Made by a program: the position numbers and the translations under genes. The notes below the pieces were generated by a model that saw only the letters and a program-made list of their open reading frames with translations, ran no database searches and was not told where the DNA came from. This document shows positions 521 to 16,347 of a stretch of 16,521 nucleotides of DNA, in pieces. How positions within the stretch are numbered: the first letter of the stretch is position 1; each line of letters opens with the position of its first letter. This stretch comes from Thermomucor indicae-seudaticae (taxonomy: Eukaryota > Mucoromycota > Mucoromycetes > Mucorales > Lichtheimiaceae): assembly GCA_000787465.1 (NCBI GenBank), contig JSYX01000705.1, forward strand, positions 1 to 16,521, given 5' to 3'.

Positions 521-2192
521 TCAACACAAGCCTTGAGCTCCTACTGTTGTCATTGAATGTGATGAAGCGCTTGAAGAAGGTTGCTGTTGCTGTTGGACCA
601 TCATGAGTGGTTGTTGATGCTGGATCGTCAAAAGTTGCTGTTGCTGCAGCTCTTGTGAATAAAAGATATGATTTGACTGTGAGTTATTGCTGAAGTAGGA
701 TGGATATTGTTGTGGTTGATGGTGAGCAGCCGACGTCATTGACGCGGTGTCGATGCCTGCAGTTGGCATGCCATATGCAGCATTATTATTAGGCGTACCA
801 GGACTGTACGGGCTACATAAACTTGCAGCCTCATCGTCGGACATGAATGCACTTTGACTGGGGCTTGGTGGCAATGGAGTATTCACGGCAGCGTGATAAA
901 TGGATGAATTCGAATGTGGGGATGATGGAGCCGAGGAAGCATCAACGGGACTGCTTTGATCAGAGAATGATGGATGAAGATTGGTTGCCAAGTTATGCGT
1001 CTGAACGGTCAAGGGCGAAGATGGACGCGAACCACTGCTTTTGTTGATATGGCGCTCATGGTTGCAGAAATCATCGTTTGTGAAGTCCACATCTGGAGAA
1101 GTGACATAGATTGGAGGCGGTCGCTGTGCTTCGGGGTCAGACTTTATGGTATCTGTCACTGGCATCTGGGAAGATGTCGAGACTACTACGGACATTTAGC
1201 AAACAACCTTGCTGTATGTGAAAAGGCTCAACTTACTCTGTCCACCTTCTTGCCGGGCAATGTAATCCATCACGGTTTCCATCATTTGTTGCTGCATATC
1301 TTGATGTCGTCTTACGTCTGTCAGCTCTCGTACAACAGCTGCAAACTCGTCCTGAAGACAAGTGAGCTGTTGCATCATGTGGGATTGAGAAACTTGCATC
1401 AAAGCAACACGGGAATGCAAGTCGCCGTTCTCACGCCTTGCCATGTCTGAATCCACAGCTTTTCTTTTGATTGCTTTCAGTAAGTCTGGCCTGCCGTGGA
1501 TGAATTTTGGATGCGAGAATTCCCATATCTGGCTTTCACCCATGGATCTATGGCCACGTGCTGACTTGTTGACTTTATGAAACCCGTACCTGAGGAAAAA
1601 GAACACGGGAAGTTATTACTTGCATAAGGCCTTACACACATTTGATTGAACACACATGTTGAGTTGACGAACAAAACTTGAGAAATTGTTATGCTTAAAG
1701 TGCTTTGGTAACACATCACGCGAGAACTCTGTGATATTGCAAACAACAAAGGAAGTTCCAGTAAAGTTCCACGATATCAGGTGCTGATACTGTTTATCTA
1801 CGACCATACTACAAGTTGCATTAAAATCACAACCGGCGAATGGATCCTTGGGATCAACCTTACTCGTATAACTTGTGCACAAACGTATTGTGACCGGTGC
1901 TATTGCTTGGCGACATCGAGGGTGCCTCCTCGTTGTTGCTATTGGTTGAGAACATATGCTTTGAAGATGATGGTCTTTTGGCGGCAGCATTCTGTGTAGG
2001 CGGTTGAAGGGATAACTGCTGAGCAAACTGTGGTTGAAAAGGGTTTTCCGGTATAGGCAACCCGTGTGGCGAACCGAAAGGAGAATAGACAGGAGAGACA
2101 AGTGGCGATCCCGCGGGCGATCCGGAAGAGACGTAATCGCCGTTCATCGCGGAAGAGTAACATGACAGTGGTGAAATCTGGCTATTGTCCAT
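521..2192 (-). CDS. HSF-type DNA-binding transcription factor (4 exons)
   Basis: Nuclear transcription factor with a heat-shock-factor-type winged-helix domain. Exons (minus): 2192-1864, 1808-1656, 1589-1237, 1185-521. Introns of 55, 66 and 51 nt are all GT-AG and keep frame, giving 499 residues. The DNA-binding domain spans about residues 103-205: TFVHKLYD, the ISW segment, then [21 protein letters not shown], which is the HSF recognition-helix signature, here split by intron 2 inside the Met codon. W183 and F185 continue the wing. Residues about 209-275 are Gln/Met-rich and predicted coiled coil, as in HSF oligomerisation regions. The tail (about 280-499) is Ser/Pro/Gln-rich with two polyglutamine runs, typical of activation domains. 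The start ATG at 2192 has a good context. The family includes Hsf1, Sfl1, Mga1 and Skn7; I cannot say which is the orthologue. The FVHKLYD start and lack of a response-regulator domain argue for an Hsf1/Sfl1/Mga1 type rather than Skn7. Confidence 0.9.
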
Positions 2193-3016
2193 GGCTTATA
2201 CTCTCGCTGCTGTTTACTGCTTAAGTAGACTTTCTATATAGTGTGTCCTGAAACGATAGAGAACAAGAAAAAGGAGAAGGGATACGCAGGAGTGAAGAGC
2301 GAGAGGGCAAGAAGGGGCGTAAATGATGCGCACAACCTCACTTTTTTTGTAGCTCAGTCAATGAGGTTTCCGGGTAGAAACCATGGCACGACAATGGGCG
2401 CTATCGCCACTTGGGCAGGGACTTGTCGTATTCGGATAAGCTCCATACTTGGTGCTAATTCATGCTCTGTCGGTAGAACGACAAAGAAGAATAGATGCCA
2501 CGACTTCCGTTGCCTTAATAACTTTTTCACTATCTGACTTCCATATCTAGTCTAACTCCCCGTTCATTTGTTTTCCTAAATACATCATTTCCTCGGTTTA
2601 TACAGAAATTGCTACGGATTCAGTCAAATAAAGAATGCTTAAACTTTCGCAGATCCGAGGCTTATATACCAGCAGGTCATCCCTTTACAGCAAGTACTTT
2701 TTGCGGTATTAACTAATGCGATATATATCCGCCGCGATGATCGTCCTGAAACGTAGTTGCACGCATGTAGTGTACAAAATACATTGAATATGGCTATCAT
2801 GGCTAGAATTTAAACGTACCAAAACCAATGTATTTGATAAATGTGTATCACCAACTGGAAACAGATACCAACTTTTCTGTCTAGTCGAATTAATGTCTAG
2901 TGCATGTTAAGCTTTGCTTGCAGTAGGAATTGTCTTTGACGGACAGCCGATGCCTTTGCGGAGGAGGAAAAAGAGGCTGAACGCATAGCAGATTGATCAA
3001 GACAAAGTTTCTAGTG
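2193..3016. other. Intergenic: HSF-type promoter and ceramidase 3' region
   Basis: This separates two minus-strand genes, so it should hold the HSF-type gene's promoter and leader (left part) and the ceramidase 3' UTR (right part). On the minus strand a pyrimidine-rich run corresponds to about 2261-2310, close to the expected transcription start. A short inverted repeat (GGTTTC, 6-nt spacer, GAAACC) lies at 2365-2382. Open frames here have no recognisable protein features. No RNA gene was found. Confidence 0.5.
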
Positions 3017-6609: not shown

Positions 6610-6705
6610 ATGGCCTACTTACCAAGCTTACCAACATGTCTCAAGACTAGCAAGCTTCCTAAAAAGACTTTCAAGTCTACAAAGTTAAAGCAACCTCATT
6701 GTTGA
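6610..6705 (+). promoter_or_regulatory. uORF2 in bZIP leader (31 codons)
   Basis: ATG to TGA encoding 31 residues rich in Lys, Ser, Thr and Pro. The start context is the strong CCACCATGG. The stop is only 20 nt before the main ATG at 6726, leaving too little room for efficient reinitiation. This matches the inhibitory second uORF of fungal cpc-1/cpcA leaders, which ribosomes bypass when eIF2 is phosphorylated. Family knowledge gives the mechanism; the layout is seen directly. Confidence 0.65.
6636..6650 (+). promoter_or_regulatory. Nested mini-uORF inside uORF2
   Basis: ATG TCT CAA GAC TAG (MSQD), lying inside uORF2 in a different frame. Ribosomes that skip the uORF2 start could initiate here and still terminate before the main ATG. 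It may be incidental. Confidence 0.4.
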
Positions 6706-6725
6706 AATCCAGCCGTATATACAAC

Positions 6726-7562
6726 ATGACGACCGTTACCGCTGCCAAACCCTTCGAACTTCCAGCCAAAGTAGAACAACGAGAACAGCAACCAATGGAC
6801 GACGAATTATTCCAGCAGTTTTTCCAGTCGCTCGCCTCAGATGATGGCACTGCTTCTTCTTGGGTGTCTCCCGACTGGCTTTTTGAGCAACAGAGCGTTC
6901 ATTCCAGCCCCGAAATCGCTACGCCACACGATCTATTCTTGGCATCACCACCTACTCCTGCCAGGGTTTCGGTGGAAGAACCCTTGATCGGAAAACAGAC
7001 CGATTTCGGTGACTTGGATGTGTCTGCACTTTTGAATGCTCCTTTGACGGATGTCAGCCCTCCCATTCAGCCTCTGCTTCCAGCAGCAGCAGCCATTTCC
7101 ACTCAAGGCCAACTACCGGTGATCAATCTGTTCCATGATTTGCCACCAGTGTTTGCTACCTTGGGCGACAGCGGCAGCCCACTGACACCACCAGCCATCC
7201 GGCAAATTCAAGAGCCCCAAGCCCACACTGTCATCACCCCAATTCCGATGCGGAAACGGACCCATGATCAAGCAGCCTCGGATAACAAGCTCGATGAAGC
7301 AGCTATCAAGCGTCAAAAGAACACAGATGCAGCTCGTCGATCGCGTCTTCGGAAAGTGTTAAAGATGGAGGCTCTGGAGAAGCGTGTCGCAGAACTGGAA
7401 AAAATCAACACAACTTTGCTTTTGAGAGCGGCTGTGCTGGAATCCGAGAAGTCCTCGTTCTTGGCAAAAGAATCCTCGTTTGAACGTCGCATCAAGGATC
7501 TCGAAGCGCAATTAGCGGATGCTCACAAGTCTTTGGCTGCTCTGGGTCGCAGCACACCTTGA
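6726..7562 (+). CDS. GCN4/CPC-1-type bZIP transcription activator
   Basis: Nuclear bZIP activator of the GCN4/CPC-1/CpcA class, master regulator of amino-acid biosynthesis genes in cross-pathway control. It is a single exon of 278 residues. The basic region has the signature N199-T-D-A-A-R-R-S-R207 (NxxAAxxSR). The zipper follows with heptad positions L217, L224, L231, L238 and F245, and the coiled coil runs on to about residue 270. The N-terminal half is acidic, Pro/Ser-rich and hydrophobic-patched, as expected for an activation region. I chose ATG 6726 because the frame upstream has no other ATG and because uORF2 ends 20 nt before it. Three upstream AUG ORFs and a GCN4-type site in the 5' region indicate translational and transcriptional self-control. 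TERT starts 365 bp downstream on the same strand. Confidence 0.9.
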   Translation: MTTVTAAKPFELPAKVEQREQQPMDDELFQQFFQSLASDDGTASSWVSPDWLFEQQSVHSSPEIATPHDLFLASPPTPARVSVEEPLIGKQTDFGDLDVSALLNAPLTDVSPPIQPLLPAAAAISTQGQLPVINLFHDLPPVFATLGDSGSPLTPPAIRQIQEPQAHTVITPIPMRKRTHDQAASDNKLDEAAIKRQKNTDAARRSRLRKVLKMEALEKRVAELEKINTTLLLRAAVLESEKSSFLAKESSFERRIKDLEAQLADAHKSLAALGRSTP

Positions 7563-7927
7563 AAAATTACCTTTTCCTTTCCGTTTTCTTTTTGCATTTG
7601 TCTTGTATTCATTTTCCATTTAGTTGCTCATAGTTTTAGTGGTTCGTAATATATCATCGTCTACAAAATTGCGTAAACCATTTGCAATGCGTTTAAAAGT
7701 GGATCATCATGGATGTTCTGCTTTGTGTTCAATGGTTATGTTAGAAAGTTGTGTCGTTGATCTATTGTAGATGTTGTCCGTTTATTATGCTGAGGTCGTT
7801 GGGACAATCTGTAGGAGATAAACGTTGCCGCTTTGTTGCTCTTGCCTGCAGGACGCGTGACGGAGTACGAAAAAGGAAACTCGTCCCTGACTTCATGAAG
7901 ACTTAACGATTCTTGTGCATAAAGAAA
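7563..7927 (+). other. Intergenic: bZIP 3' UTR and TERT promoter
   Basis: There are 365 bp between the bZIP stop and the TERT ATG, T-rich at the left. No coding exon is apparent; in particular there is no room for a TERT TEN domain of the usual 150-200 residues. The TERT frame has an in-frame TAA 21 nt before its ATG. Confidence 0.6.
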
Positions 7928-10900
7928 ATGTCTCGAAAAAGATCTTTGACAGATGACGAATCCAGCTCCTCATCAGTAAAGAAGTTACGAACAGACGGGA
8001 TCAACCCCCTGACAGCTATTGATCGTTCCAACCTGTTTTACGGAAATCCTGACGAAAAGTCTTTTGGTAAACCGATCTCCCTGTTCCCAAAGGAATGTGG
8101 TTCGTCCAAGGACACCAGGACGTTAGCCAAGCGTATCTTTCCGGAAGAGTTTCGCAATGAAAAGGTAAGGCAAAAAGAAGCTTTTGGATCTTGCGTGTCA
8201 GTGTTGTAGGGCCGCCAGTAAATACCCGGTTTCTGACTTTGCAGGACACGCGATTGCCCAAGCGATTGCGAACGGTTGGACCATTACTGCAAACGGTAGC
8301 TAAAAAGCACAACAGCGAAAGACCAATTGCGGCATTACTTGCGACTTGTCAGTTACCCAAAGTACGTATCACCTAGTGAGCGAGCGCAGCCGTCCTTAAA
8401 TCCACTCATTTTTCCACGGGTTTAGAGTGATGCGACAATAGCTGACATGTCAAACACTCACAATGCGGTATGTTGGCTCTTATGTGCTCTATCCATGTAA
8501 CTATGAATTCGTAACTATGTACGATGGATAGGTCGCGGCGTTTGCAACCACACAATTAAAGCGCGTATTCCCGGACGAATTTTGGGGCTCGCAGCATAAT
8601 TTTCGTGTCGTCGCTCGTGGTAAGAAAACTATATATATTAAATTGGCATGGCTGTTGAGTTTACAATGTGGGCTAATATTTATATAGCCGTGCGTCGTCT
8701 TGTTACTTTACGGCGTCGAGAGACGTTACGCCTTCAGGATATCTGTAAAAATTTCAAGGTAAGGCAAAGGTTAAGTACGGATTAGGCCATTCTGACATGG
8801 CCGCTCATATGATTGCATAAAGATCACACACTGTAACTGGCTTGCTCCACGGTCGCAAAACGCTCGTCCAGCCCCGTCTGATATGGAGAAACGCAAGGCA
8901 TTACTCCTTCAGTTCTTTAATTGGCTGTTTAGCGGTTATTTGATACCATGCCTAAAGGTGAACAGTTGCATTTTCAAGGGTAAGGGCGAGGCAGGGGAAA
9001 CTAACGATGATGGTTCTTCTTTCAGTCAACGTTTTATGTGACGGAGCATAGTCAATACAAGAATCAAGTATTCTACTTTCGACATGACATATGGAGGAAG
9101 ATTACCAAGCCATTTTTTGATAACTTGACTATTCAGCGTTACCACAGCGTCGATCAGGTCGGCTCATACAGGGCACATATGAGAAGCATGGCTATTCTCA
9201 TAAACCAGCTTTTTTATGTTAGCGCTTCCTTGCCAGTTTACGTTTGGGATCTTCGCCAGTGCGGCTTATACCGAAAGCCAACGGGTTCCGTGTCATTACT
9301 AGCATGAATAGTACCATTCTTCACGTAAGTATATCTATTCAAGTAGTATCGAGGTCAACCAATATTAACGAAATTTGGTCCCTAGACACGAAGCGGGCCC
9401 AGTACCAAAAGGGGCAACAGTAATTGGACCCTTGCTGAATTGATGCAAGTGCTGAAACTAGAAATGGTTTGTATGGTGCTATGATTCCGGTGTGGTCTAT
9501 TGATAACTGATCAGTACGTACAAAGTCTGAGCAACCGGAAATGGTTGGAGGTGCTGTGACAAATATGCAAGAGATGCTGGAAAAGTTCGCTGGATACAAG
9601 AAAACAAATCTTCGGAATGGGTGCGAGTCAAGATCTATCCTTTGGACAGTTTTCCGCCGTTTCAGCTATGCTAACAGCGACGATAGCAGCAATAGGAAGT
9701 TCTATCTCGTGAAGGCTGATATTAAAAATTGTTTCGATACGATCGATCAAACGATATTGCTCGACATTCTGCGGACCGTATTACGTGAAGTACGTTTCAA
9801 ACCTATATTGATATACTCAGGGCAATATGCGCTAATGCTCCGCTGTTTGATGCAGGAAAATTATACACTGCTAAAGTATAATACCACAATCAATGCTCCA
9901 AACAGAAAAATTTCTCGTCAGGAAATCGTGGTTGTCAAGGGTCATAGTGAGTATCAAGCCCTTAGGGAAATAGACATGCTTGAGATAACATGTAATTCGC
10001 GGCTCTACTAGGTAAAACGATGACTGCCGAAGAAGCGTCAGCGTATCTTGCTGAAAGATCCATATACACGGCTTCAACTGATGATGCAAGTGTTGGGACA
10101 AACGAGGATACAGGGAGCTTGTGCTTATTACGCGTTTTAGATAACGTACAAATGCAAAGACGCGAGTTCTCTCATTGCTCTTGCGGAAGAACATATTACA
10201 AAGAACACCGTAAAGGTACATATTCCAATTGCGCTACTATAATCATGTGTAATTGACTTAATGGGCACTCCTTTGGTATAGATTGGGAACAAGTTCTATC
10301 GCCAGACTGTTGGCATCCCGCAAGGGTCATGCCTTTCAAATATACTTTGCAGGTAACTTGCATTGGCCTTGCATAACTTGTTCCCCTGGGATCACTAAAC
10401 ACATGCTTCTTAATACGCCAGCTTGTTCTATGGGCGTATGGAAAAGGAGGAACTCAAATTTCTAAAGGAGGATCCGGATGCGGTAAATGACTTTAGGATC
10501 AAACAAACCTTGTTTTGTTGCTGCTATTTCTGAACATAAGCTCTTAGATGTTAATACGCTACGTTGACGACTTTTTTCTAATCAGCACGAGGAAAGAAAC
10601 AATAACAAAGTTTTGCAATGTGATTGCACGTGGTAAGTTAAGTACATGTACGTATGTTAGCTGTGCAATGGCTTTCTAAAGAGGTTAAACGCAGGTGTTC
10701 CAAAGTACAATTGTTTCTTTAACAAGGAGAAGTCGATGGCAAACTTTGAAACCGGTGTAAAGGGTATCCCTTTCTCGGATTGCAGAGGTAATACTGGCTT
10801 CTCTTAAGGCACGTTTGGTATGTTTCGGTTAAGCTTTTTTGTAGAATTCGCCTGGTGTGGTTTGGTTATAAATACCGAAAATCTGGATATACACTATGAT

Positions 10901-11642
10901 TATTCTCGTTATCTTTCCGGACGTGAGTAATCTATAAGAAGTGCAATAACGAAAAGGATTAACAATGATAGCCTGTTTTAGGCATAAGTGATGGTGTAAC
11001 CGCCGAGTATTCCAGCCACGCGGGCCGAGATGTGTTGCACAAGGCGATCCAGTAAGTGCCAAATTCAGGGAGTAACAAGAAGGGGGACCTAACGTGTGCT
11101 GCCAAGGTCGATCAAAACCAGGATACAGAGTGGATTAATGGATCCTCAGTTCAACAGCAAGAATGCTGTATACCGTAACTTTTACGAGTGTTTTCTGTGC
11201 ACTGCTATCAAATTCGCCGCGCATTGCCGCGAGCTTCAGCGAAAGGGACACCAGAACGCTTTGAATCAGAAATACATTTTCGGTAAGAAGAGAAAGAAGA
11301 TGAACGATAAAGCAAAAAATGCTGATGATCGTTTTAACAGACATTGTTATGCAACTTGCAGACATGATAGAGGTAGAGCTGCCTAGAGGATTGAGCAAGA
11401 AGTCTGTAATGTGGTGAGTTGTGAATTCTTTCTTCGCAAGAAAGAGTTCTTTTTCTAAGTGTCTCGATTGTAATAGGTATTTCTTTAAAGCATTTCATCA
11501 AACGCTCGGACGGCGACACAATTTATTCAGTAACGTCACTGCATGTCTGGAACGTTGTCTTGACGGTTACGGCCCGTGCAAACGACTAGAAGAGATGAGA
11601 CGCGCGTGGCCTGAAACAAGGCTCTCAGAGGTTCCTTGGTAA
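7928..11642 (+). CDS. TERT: Telomerase reverse transcriptase (22 exons)
   Basis: Catalytic subunit of telomerase; copies an RNA template onto chromosome ends. Exons: 7928-8164, 8245-8361, 8426-8467, 8532-8619, 8688-8758, 8823-8957, 9026-9157, 9223-9324, 9386-9466, 9526-9789, 9856-9946, 10012-10091, 10141-10215, 10282-10352, 10422-10482, 10548-10632, 10695-10787, 10845-10922, 10982-11051, 11107-11282, 11341-11413, 11477-11642; 795 residues. TRBD: CP-like motif IDRSNLFYG (31-39), QFP-like region with FPDEFWGS (145-152), T motif STFYVTE (231-237). RT domain: VRLIPKANGFR (motif 1), DIKNCFDTI with catalytic D400 (motif A), GIPQGS (516-521, motif B), RYVDD with D556/D557 (motif C), WCG at 612-614 (motif E, primer grip). 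About 625-795 is the C-terminal extension. The N-terminus has basic, nuclear-localisation-like clusters (SRKR, KKLR) but no TEN domain. All introns are GT-AG. The weakest junction is exon 12/13 (donor GTTGGG), chosen because it restores the DASSLIALAEEH frame ahead of motif B. Intron 9 has an alternative splice pair. Confidence 0.93.
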
Positions 11643-11919
11643 AGCATCTCCAAAGGGGCGTTGTAGTGGTTTAGGGAGTCAGCTGCACTTCTGCGATGGA
11701 AGCGTTTTACGGATCATCCAATTTTAATTGTCTCCCTAGCCACAAGTCTCACTGCAGCTTCTCTCCTGTTCATCACAGATATGAAGCCTAAAGGAAAAAA
11801 CAGAGAGACAAGGAAACCCCAATTCAGACACCTTTTGCTCCTGTCCTTTTACCTTCTTACGTCTCCCGTACCTTCCCTTTCCAATCCTTGGTGCTTAATT
11901 CCTTCCTTTATCTTTTGTG

Positions 11920-13966
11920 ATGTTTCCAATTGTATCCACGATGTCAGCCACTTGCGATCAGCAGAGAGAAGAGCTTTACCAGGCGTTTCAAAAACTGTCG
12001 GCACCTCAGCAACTGCGACCTTCGATCGATTCGCAGTTCAGCCGAGAAAGTTCGATGCAATTGTGTCAGCCTGCCATGTACTCGTTGTATAACACAAGCA
12101 TCCACTTTTTGGCGACTGATTTATCGGTGCCGAGAGAGGAATATATGCCTTATTCGCCATACGCACTGTCTAGCTTTAGCAGCTCTGCATCCAGCCTAGT
12201 GTCATCTTCCCGATCATCTTCTTCATCCTCTTCTGTAATTTCTACTGATATTGAGACCCCTTTGCCTTCACCAAAGCAATCATTGCCGCCCAAACGATGT
12301 CGGATTCCTGGCTTTACTCGCAAGAAACAAAAGGATCCATCCATTGATGCTGAGTCGACCGAAAAGCACAGACTTATATTGGATCTGGATTCCAAAGATA
12401 GGTGAGTAACGATATTCGAGACAGATAACGATCACGTCAATTAATGGACCTCTTTTGTGATCAGGGATATATACGGTTTCAAACGTCCTCTTCAGTGGGT
12501 TAAAGCATCCGAGCTTGAAGCATTTGACCAGACGTATGCCCATATACTCGATAAACAAGCCAACAAGTGGGACAAATTCCTGGCAGAGTACGATGGCAAA
12601 TGGCCTCCCGTGTGTTCTAAATGTGAGTTTGTTTCAGATGAACCATGCTGCAATCAAATACGCTGACGTTTTATCCTATGTTAGTAAAACGTTACGTCCG
12701 AAAAGGTATCCCACGAGAGCTTCGCGGAAAAGCATGGATGCATTATAGTGGTGCCAAGACAAAAATGGATGCAAATCCAGGCATGTATGAGTCGCTTGCC
12801 AGTAAAGCTGCTGATATGGGTAAAGACAATGAATATGCAGAAGTTGTTTATCGAGGTATGTATATACCAACATAGATTTTTCATTAAATTCAGTAGTTTA
12901 ACGATCGAGTTTTACTTGTAGATCTACACCGAACATTTCCGGATAATTTCTACTTTTCGTGTGCTGTACCTCAACCGGATGGCTCGTGCCACATGGTTCC
13001 GGATTCAAATCCTAAACTTTGTGCTCTTCAGCGGGTTCTGCTAGCCTTTAGCGTGCATTCGCCTCATATTGGTTACTGCCAGTCTCTGAATTTCCTCGCG
13101 GGCTTCTTTCTATTATTTCTGGACAGCGAAGAGGAAGCTTTTTGGATGCTCGAGACGGTTGTCAACGACTATTACCCGGAACACATGTTTGACTCGACAA
13201 TGGAAGGTGCAACCGTCGACCAAACGGTGCTTATGCAGCTTGTCTACGAGAAGATGCCTGGTGTTTGGAATAAGTTCAGTGATAAACGTTGCTTCTGGGA
13301 ATGTGAACAGACAGACAACCTCCCTCCTATAACTCTGGTGACGAGCCACTGGTTTTTGACGCTTTTCATCAATATTTTGCCTGTTGAGGTATGCTCTGAA
13401 TTCGAGAAAATGTTACCTGTATTAAACGGTTTCTTTTGCTTAGACTGTCCTTCGAGTCTGGGATTGCGTATTCATGTAAGTCTTGTCGAGTTCACGTAAT
13501 GATGCAGAATCTAATACAACTTTTTTCTTGCAGTGAGGGTTACAAGGTTCTGTTTCGAGTTGCCCTGACGATCATCAAACTTAATGATCGGAAAATAAAG
13601 GCTGTCGAAGATCCTACCGAAGTATTTCAGATCTTGCAGAATATGCCGAGGCGATTGATTGATTGCCACAAATTTATGGAGGTAAGGACGACCATTCAAT
13701 ACAGATGTGGAGAAATACGGTACTTATTGCTTTCCTTTCTGTTATAGTGTGTGTTCTCGAAACCTGGTGTCTCAGATGATTTGACATTACAGGATATTGA
13801 AGCTCGTCGCACCATGTTCCGAGACCGTCGCAGGCATAGAAGACCGGGGGCGATTTTTCGAAATGAGCTCGCCGCTATATCGCAACAATGTGCTGCAGAC
13901 AGCGACTGCGAATACGATGACGACGACAGCGATAAAAACGACGCAGATTGCACTGCTTACATGTAA
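11920..13966 (+). CDS. TBC-domain Rab GTPase-activating protein (TBC1D6/GRTP1-like)
   Basis: Stimulates GTP hydrolysis by a Rab GTPase in membrane traffic. Exons: 11920-12401, 12465-12622, 12685-12855, 12922-13388, 13444-13475, 13534-13681, 13748-13966; 558 residues from the first ATG, 551 from the second at 11941, which is an equally possible start. Residues about 1-160 are Ser-rich and low-complexity. The stretch DIYGFKRP through NKWDKFL matches the pre-TBC region of TBC1D6/GRTP1. TBC motifs follow: YVRKGIPRELRGKAW, YRDLHRTFPDN with the arginine finger R274 (IxxDxxR type), GYCQ with the glutamine finger Q324, then SHWFLTLF, VLRVWDC and GYKVLFRVALT. Both catalytic fingers are present, so it should be an active GAP. 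The C-terminus ends in an Arg-rich segment and a short acidic Asp run. The Rab substrate is not predictable. Confidence 0.92.
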
Positions 13967-14375
13967 TAACACTATGAATAGTCGAAGCATTTATACCATT
14001 AGAAAATGAATTGCTTTCTTTTGATCTCTGTCATGGATCACGTAGTATCAAACAAAGTATAGCCTGTAAAAATTGTGCTCAGTTGTGCCTAACCACATTC
14101 ACGTACATCTGCCAAGAGTAAACACTCGGATAGGTCAAAAACCGTGATGATTGCGTCTCATAATAATTTGTGCTTTGGTGATTTCGCTTGCCTCCTCCGT
14201 AAAAACCCGCTCATTTACCATATGTTGCGTACCGCTCATGTCGCCTTTGAAGGGATTCAAGGCGTCTCTCAGTTGAGAATTTGATTTAAATTTGACACAT
14301 AGATGTACTGAGTTAACGCGATAATAAAATAGCAATGAACATTATCTTACTGATACAAAACTATAATATCTACAG
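13967..14375. other. Convergent intergenic region
   Basis: This lies between the 3' ends of the plus-strand TBC gene and the minus-strand protease. AATAAA at 14323-14328 on the plus strand could serve the TBC transcript, though it would make a long 3' UTR. A minus-strand frame at 14135-14335 (about 66 codons, with an ATG only for its last 34) has no recognised domain and is more likely chance. Confidence 0.45.
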
Positions 14376-15602
14376 TTATGAAGAAGCAACTGGAGCAAAA
14401 CCGACGCGCTTGTTTCCAAAGTCAAAGATTGTAACAAAGTGGCCCAGGACATAGTTACCAAGGATATAATCGCTGCCAGAGGACGTGCTGATGGACAAGC
14501 GGCAAGTCTGGCCGGTCGAATCCACGTGCCTCAAGAGACGATGGAGCGGGAGCGTAATGTAAACCGTACCCTTGGACTGGCTGCTTGCCTGGAAGTGGAA
14601 GGAAACAGTGGTATCCGAGTTCTCATAAGGTGCACAGTCGCCTTCATAAAACGTGCCGTTTCGGGTAAACGTCGGCACCAGTGCGCTTGCCAGTGCATTC
14701 GCGTCCTGCTCGGGGATATAGACGAAATTGCTTCCGGTATCCATCAGAAAAGCCTCTTGATCGAACGTCAGCTGATGCTCGCCCGCCTGGCCTTGGTTGA
14801 TGACAATTCTGGGTACTAGGATGCTCCACTCTTCGTACACTCCTTTCTGATCCCCTATGTCGGAGGTAACCAGGTCCGAGTAGACAATCTCGCCGCCATT
14901 GAGCGACTGGTCGTAGCCGCCGAAAACAACAGAGCCCGTGGTTGAAGATGAGCTGGCAGCGTCTGCGAACACAGGGCCCATGTAGACCGAGAACATGGGT
15001 GCTGGGATGAGCTTGGTCTCATAGAGTGCTTGCGGGACAGTCGGATAGGTAACGTTGTATTTGCCGTACATGGCCGTGCCAAGCGGGAAACCTGCACCAA
15101 AGACGCCATCCACGATGAGCTGGTCGCTGGGTGATTGGTCCGATATGGTTCCAGCCGAGTCATCGACCATGGCCACGATTTGCTTGGACAGGGTGATGTT
15201 GGCAACCGTCACCTGGTCGACGAAGTAGCTACCGTTGTCGCTGCCAGAACCGTAGGTAATCTCGAACTCGTATTTACTTGGCGAGTACGTTGACGATGCG
15301 GAGGAGTTGTACACGTGCTGGCCACTCACGCAGCCTTCCTTCGTAGTGCATTTGGGAGAAGAGACCCAGACATCCGAACTTCCAGTGTCGAACAATAAGA
15401 GGAACTCTTGCCCCGGCCTACCGACCTCCACAGGTATAGCAAGCTCCGACATCTCCTGATCATAGTATGCAGGTGTAGACGCTGCGGATGCATCGCGTTC
15501 CAAGAGCGGATGGCTTGAGCGCATTATCCGGCGAAGTGGTACTTTCAAGAGCTGTGGTTCTGCGGTAGTAGTAAGACAGGAAGAGCAACAGCATCCAGAC
15601 AT
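14376..15602 (-). CDS. Pepsin-family (A1) aspartic protease, N-terminus in doubt
   Basis: Bilobed acid endopeptidase, probably secreted or vacuolar. The uninterrupted body from the ATG at 15602 gives 408 residues. The first catalytic motif is DTGSSDVWV (D72 in this numbering) and the second is DTGS (D288). The flap has ITYGSGSDNGSY with its Tyr. A late hydrophobic-glycine segment (YILGNYVLGHFVTIFDF) and the end VGFAPVA are typical of the family. EPQLLKVPLRR looks like the start of a propeptide, but the residues before it in this frame (Cys-rich MSGCCCSSC) do not form a signal peptide. A better one starts at ATG 15652 (MKFSQAARLACASFAIQ...) in another frame and closes after about 35 codons. 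A TATA box 47 nt upstream of 15652 supports that start. No intron I tried joins the two sensibly, so a single-base deletion, an assembly error or a broken gene is likely. It has no introns in the body, unlike most of its neighbours. Confidence 0.85.
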   Translation of the reverse strand: MSGCCCSSCLTTTAEPQLLKVPLRRIMRSSHPLLERDASAASTPAYYDQEMSELAIPVEVGRPGQEFLLLFDTGSSDVWVSSPKCTTKEGCVSGQHVYNSSASSTYSPSKYEFEITYGSGSDNGSYFVDQVTVANITLSKQIVAMVDDSAGTISDQSPSDQLIVDGVFGAGFPLGTAMYGKYNVTYPTVPQALYETKLIPAPMFSVYMGPVFADAASSSSTTGSVVFGGYDQSLNGGEIVYSDLVTSDIGDQKGVYEEWSILVPRIVINQGQAGEHQLTFDQEAFLMDTGSNFVYIPEQDANALASALVPTFTRNGTFYEGDCAPYENSDTTVSFHFQASSQSKGTVYITLPLHRLLRHVDSTGQTCRLSISTSSGSDYILGNYVLGHFVTIFDFGNKRVGFAPVASS

Positions 15603-15698
15603 TGTATGGCAAAGGAGGCACACGCCAAACGGGCGGCTTGAGAGAACTTCATGCTGAGAGAGATGCTGGAGTATGTAGAAGCCATAAAACGCTCCTGC

Positions 15699-15706
15699 TT
15701 TATATA
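15699..15706 (-). promoter_or_regulatory. TATA box of the protease gene
   Basis: TATATAAA on the minus strand, 47 nt before the ATG at 15652. Transcription starting about 30 nt downstream would make 15652 the first AUG of the message and would exclude the in-frame ATG at 15685, which sits inside the core promoter. Confidence 0.55.
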
Positions 15707-16347
15707 AGTTTGATCTGGAGTATTATGTGTGGCGCTTCCCTTTTTGCTTTGTTGCACGAATCCATATATAGCCGCATGATCCTCGAGGAATAGACAATAT
15801 ACAAAGCTTCTTATATTGATCTTGCCAATTTTCAATAAATAGATTGTAGTTTGCCTAGTGGATACTCAGGTTCTTTAACATGCAAAAGATGACTTTCTTC
15901 ATCGTTGCTTGGCAATAGAGGAGGCGCAGATCGGGCGCAGCTGTTTCCTGTGACGTGTGATCTGGTGCATTTCTGGGTACAGGTCTACGGTCTGCGCCGC
16001 AAATCTGAAACAGCCATCTTACTATTGTTTACATCCAACTTTCGGTCTCAAGGGAGTGTGCGCCAAGTCTCAGGCTCTATTTTGCAGCTCAGGAGTAATC
16101 CAATCCATGTCTAAAGGCTCTCTGGTCGAATTAAGTTACGCAGATGACTATCATGGTCGTTTTGCACTTACTTCCGCGTCGAAGATCCCGTGCAAGCAAG
16201 CAAGCTTTAAAGTTGATGCAGAAAAGGACTCATTTACGAAAACGGCCAGATGGTCATGAGGTTACTATATATAGTTCGAAGGACTGACGAGCCTGAACCT
16301 AATGTGTGCCGTGGTTACAGGCACAAGCTGGCCAAGCAATGCTTTAT
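15707..16347. other. Intergenic, upstream of the protease
   Basis: About 640 bp with no gene recognised. Plus-strand open frames (for example 15957-16259) have no domain and no clear promoter. An 8-bp inverted repeat, GGCGCAGA at 15923-15930 and TCTGCGCC at 15991-15998, and a second TA-rich box at about 16263-16271 are present. It should include the protease upstream control region. Confidence 0.4.

Follow-up and report, generated by a model that had tools for sequence, protein, structure and literature searches.

A predicted telomerase reverse transcriptase of Thermomucor indicae-seudaticae without an N-terminal TEN domain

In yeast, ciliates and vertebrates, the TEN domain of telomerase reverse transcriptase (TERT) aids RNA and DNA binding, processivity and the recruitment of subunits (PMC13023368). 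Together with the IFD-TRAP region, TEN is essential for repeat addition by the human enzyme (PMC12920920). TEN is absent from the TERT chain of the beetle Tribolium castaneum (PMC13023368, PMC7274783 and PMC12920920), and beetle TERT without TEN is active in vitro (PMC13023368); the Tribolium enzyme is also described as having no IFD-TRAP (PMC12920920) or a partly missing IFD (PMC7274783). A second point of comparison is engineered human TERT, in which deletion of TEN leaves a core that includes the IFD; when TEN is supplied in trans, repeat addition becomes processive again and recruitment is partly rescued (by ∼35%), an effect that requires IFD-TRAP (PMC10055720). In yeast, both TEN and the IFD serve as docking sites for Est3 (PMC7619062). 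Among the matches listed in searches of open-licence full texts, none describes a fungal TERT that lacks TEN.

We analyzed a 16,521-nucleotide stretch of the Thermomucor indicae-seudaticae genome (contig JSYX01000705.1, hereafter the window), for which a first-pass annotation had proposed a TERT gene whose product lacks TEN.

Gene structure and domains of Thermomucor TERT

The TERT gene was read by hand as 22 exons, which were joined by script (Table 1). Its 21 introns measure 44 to 80 bp each, and their GT..AG borders were chosen by eye to hold the TERT motifs in frame; the spliced product is a single open frame of 800 amino acids running from the ATG at 7928 to a TAA ending at 11642. Intron 12 is ambiguous, since it can be read as 49 bp with a TAG acceptor or as 70 bp with an AAG acceptor; the frame is kept either way, and the choice alters part of the IFD-TRAP region.

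Table 1 Features of the window around the TERT gene (positions count from the first base of the window)
Feature	Position	Strand	Remarks
Putative heat-shock-factor-type gene pieces	521..2195	-	intron-split, recognized by eye
bZIP open frame	6663..7562	+	stop to stop, TGA 7560-7562; Pfam bZIP_2 8e-09
bZIP-TERT intergenic gap	7563..7927	.	365 bp, GC 0.381, no TEN-like match
In-frame TAA	7904..7906	+	24 bases 5' of the TERT ATG
TERT gene	7928..11642	+	22 exons, 800 aa
TERT exon 1	7928..8164	+	start codon, basic/Ser linker with a bipartite run resembling an NLS (KR-12-KKLR), CP motif (residue 32 onward)
TERT exons 2-7	8245..9157	+	remaining CP, QFP and T motifs; TRBD PF12009 residues 133-263
TERT exons 8-10	9223..9789	+	motifs 1, 2 and A; catalytic D405
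TERT segment including intron 12	9856..10215	+	intron 12 = 10092-10140 or 10090-10159
TERT exons 14-16	10282..10632	+	motif B' (GIPQGSCLS), motif C (YVDD, D561 and D562)
TERT exons 17-22	10695..11642	+	remainder of RT, C-terminal extension (PF21399, 26.9 bits versus cut-off 27), stop TAA
Putative TBC/RabGAP gene pieces	11899..13747	+	recognized by eye
Aspartyl protease	14376..15722	-	nearest in PDB to mucorpepsin

Profile searches of the 800-residue protein identified the TRBD (Pfam PF12009, Telomerase_RBD; 3.2e-43, 147.5 bits) and the RT domain (RVT_1, 1.9e-12), and all three catalytic Asp residues are present. The top PDB match, over residues 133 to 717 (4.6e-61), is 7qxa, a human telomerase reverse transcriptase. 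The first-pass annotation had described the TRBD, RT and C-terminal domains as intact; this holds for the first two and for the catalytic residues, but the C-terminal extension is marginal, with TERT_C (PF21399) falling just below its cut-off. TEN is absent from the Pfam matches at E ≤ 1, a threshold at which the negative is limited by the HMMER filters, which discard most matches above about 0.1. The IFD is of full length: the spacing from the motif A Asp to the motif C Asp is 156, as against 150 to 153 in four Rhizopus TERTs and 138 to 183 across the 16 proteins found, and the alternative reading of intron 12 would make the IFD only a few residues shorter. A frame that stays open over 22 exons, together with the conserved motifs, suggests a working enzyme.

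Searches of the genome contigs with the TRBD and with the Rhizopus arrhizus TERT (P0009) match contig C582 alone, which makes this the single TERT copy found among the contigs searched, and in these contigs we see no sign of a second copy that might carry TEN.

Other genes in the window include intron-split pieces resembling a heat-shock-factor-type transcription factor and, downstream of TERT, pieces of a putative TBC/RabGAP gene. The aspartyl protease has mucorpepsin (2asi, 5.8e-88) as its nearest PDB entry, the best match of another kind being gastricsin (1.6e-24), as would be expected in a fungus of Mucoromycota type.

The protein start and the upstream DNA

The first 31 residues of the predicted protein, MSRKRSLTDDESSSSSVKKLR, form a basic, Ser-rich leader that includes the NLS-like run and aligns on the TEN-TRBD linker of other TERTs (aligned after removal of their TEN). 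From residue 32, DRSNLFYGNP aligns on the CP region, for example on VRSRIFYGRP in Claviceps. By eye, the CP region of the Rhizopus TERTs is less ascomycete-like in the alignment than that of Thermomucor. The account of this region in the first-pass annotation, namely a Lys/Arg- and Ser-rich leader leading into the CP motif, an ATG preceded by an in-frame TAA and a spacing of 365 bp to a bZIP gene, agrees with our reading in each particular. On the plus strand of the gap, the longest stop-free stretches, one per frame, are 28, 48 and 53 codons; the largest of these, 53 codons, compares with 154 to 163 amino acids for the TEN-type regions of Rhizopus. A candidate 60-bp 5' intron recognized by eye (7865-7924, GTACGA..ATAAAG) would add ∼26 in-frame residues; this extension was rejected as a TEN domain, being far too short and having no GQ motif by eye. 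These observations support the conclusion that the TERT polypeptide starts in the TEN-TRBD linker and lacks TEN, for which the upstream gap appears to leave no room, and to this extent they bear out the original proposal.

A TEN profile built from 11 TERT N-termini, of which P0002 and P0015 begin inside the domain, found no match in a six-frame search of the window (best E 0.24, 14345-14530, minus strand). A spliced scan of both strands of the window with the TEN profile reached no more than 19.2 bits, against a background with a mean of 16.9, a standard deviation of 2.4 and a maximum of 25.6 (n=60 segments, drawn from loci picked by GQ pattern). As a control, a spliced CP profile was applied: its true place in exon 1 scored 20.2, against a background maximum of 18.3 (n=60), whereas a false one on the minus strand scored 22.1. 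Because the control scores higher at the false than at the true place, the spliced-profile method is weak, and the absence of a nearby TEN therefore rests mainly on space and frame.

All of this evidence comes from one contig, and a TEN domain could in principle be hidden by a chimeric join within 7563-7927 or by an unusual gene structure, such as a bZIP gene nested in a TERT intron. We consider such an artefact very unlikely. The spliced scan, for all its weakness, gave no TEN-like match above background upstream to base 1, and the 1301-bp stretch from 7150 to 8450, which spans the gap, is unique among the genome contigs, matching only itself. Nesting of the bZIP gene would call for an intron of more than 1.1 kb in a gene whose introns measure 44 to 80 bp, and the leader has an in-frame start after a stop as well as the NLS-like run.

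Relatives in Rhizopus and searches for a separate TEN

Three protein searches yielded 16 proteins, four of which bear a Mucoromycota name, all of them Rhizopus: P0001 and P0008 (Rhizopus microsporus), P0009 (R. arrhizus) and P0010 (R. delemar). Scans of genome and viral contigs gave no further relatives. In a tree of TERT cores comprising the Thermomucor protein and 11 of the 16, Thermomucor TERT groups with Rhizopus at 100/98; P0007 and P0016 were flagged as long-branched, and composition flags fell on P0001, P0008 and P0016. The Rhizopus proteins thus stand nearest in the tree and share with Thermomucor TERT the TRBD, the RT domain and an IFD of nearly equal length, and identity to P0010 is 35% over 610 columns. 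They differ at the N-terminus. All four begin with a TEN-type region of 154 to 163 amino acids that ends in a GQ motif, [YF]Q[LI]SGYPI, and is followed by a basic linker, whereas the Thermomucor chain begins in the linker. The Pfam TEN family PF11474 matches P0001 at 7e-05 (23.5 bits versus a cut-off of 25) and, at E ≤ 0.1, 7 of the 11 TERTs scanned, which were those in the alignment. The AlphaFold model of P0001 has a mean pLDDT of 59.7, and its residues 1 to 160 lie under 60 in every 10-residue block.

The suggestion in the first-pass annotation that TEN might have been lost across this fungal lineage is not borne out by the Rhizopus proteins, which come from three named species. If Rhizopus is representative, we infer, comparing one genus with one gene, that TEN was present in the common ancestor and left the TERT gene later, in the Thermomucor line.

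Could TEN be encoded elsewhere in the genome? A separate TEN gene was sought in the genome contigs with PF11474 and with two Rhizopus TEN sequences, and neither gave a match; PF11474 was silent in all control genomes too. Two GQ patterns gave 30 places (reversed-pattern control, 10) and 34 places (control, 23), with two places common to both; the 62 distinct places were assessed by in-frame reading and with the spliced TEN profile, and none was judged to be TEN. Among the candidates discarded, L046 had the top spliced score (29.4) yet is Q-rich and of low complexity, and L021 (25.6) and L013 (24.0), the latter inspected more closely, have no TEN-like continuation.

These searches have low power. 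The P0009 search, used as a yardstick, returned eight stretches, all from P0009 residue 281 on, and so missed the CP exons of the TERT itself; because these exons are present in the genome, an empty TEN search means little, with the proviso that the CP region of P0009 is short and degenerate and makes an imperfect yardstick. The TEN domains of many unicellular eukaryotes are poor in the GQ motif (PMC5405514), so GQ-motif searches could miss one. The 47 genome contigs that were sized are all at least 10,150 bases long, and small contigs may therefore be missing from the searches. The TPP1 and POT1 families had no match in the genome contigs, nor in the control genomes, which makes that result uninformative.

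Telomere repeats and the proposed mode of action

Telomere repeats were looked for in the same contigs. Four tandem copies of TTAGGG, or of TTGTGG, which corresponds to ACAACC, the R. stolonifer repeat (PMC13111411), are absent from the genome contigs searched. Of 20 contig starts inspected, none looks telomeric; L071 has an 18-bp run of three CGATTC copies away from its end, and L067 starts with a GT run. The telomere repeat may differ from TTAGGG and TTGTGG, or the telomeric contigs may be missing from those searched, and because both repeats are absent, these contigs lend no separate support to telomerase activity.

The explanation we favor, with somewhat better than even confidence, is that the gene encodes an intact TERT of the Mucoromycota type that starts in the TEN-TRBD linker, TEN having left the gene after the Thermomucor and Rhizopus lines parted, and that it works by way of the IFD and a trans-acting partner. 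The remaining chain, consisting of the linker with its likely NLS, the TRBD, the RT domain with a full IFD and the C-terminal extension, would bind telomerase RNA and copy the template. In other telomerases the IFD docks both TEN and an OB fold of the TPP1/Est3 type. Because this docking region is kept at full length in Thermomucor TERT, repeat addition and recruitment would most likely still proceed via the IFD, with the partner in trans replacing TEN.

The parallel with Tribolium drawn by the first-pass annotation is apt for the absence of TEN and fails for the IFD, which is absent or truncated in Tribolium (PMC12920920 and PMC7274783) and is full length here. This difference bears on another possibility, that TEN was wholly lost and not replaced, so that few repeats would be added per binding event, as by TEN-deleted human TERT. 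The in vitro activity of TEN-less beetle TERT (PMC13023368) speaks for it; the retention here of an IFD that is truncated in Tribolium suggests that a partner surface is still in use, and we regard unreplaced loss as possible but doubtful. An absent TEN combined with a retained IFD allows for a trans-acting partner.

One special case of the favored explanation is a naturally split TERT, in which the IFD-TRAP docking surface is kept and TEN itself is supplied in trans from a separate gene. It is a live alternative because IFD-TRAP lets a separate TEN act in trans on TEN-deleted human TERT (PMC10055720) and Thermomucor TERT has a full-length IFD. The human arrangement is engineered, whereas a trans TEN in Thermomucor is only a candidate, and PF11474, the Rhizopus TENs and the GQ-like places yielded none, in searches whose low power was noted above. 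On balance we rate a split TERT as unlikely, somewhat more so than unreplaced loss.

Of the original interpretation, the TEN-less TERT chain stands, while a loss throughout the lineage and a changed mechanism are not supported. A fungal TERT that has no TEN yet keeps its IFD would uncouple two features that Tribolium lacks together, and it would let one test whether a TEN in trans or some other partner fills the role of TEN in nature.
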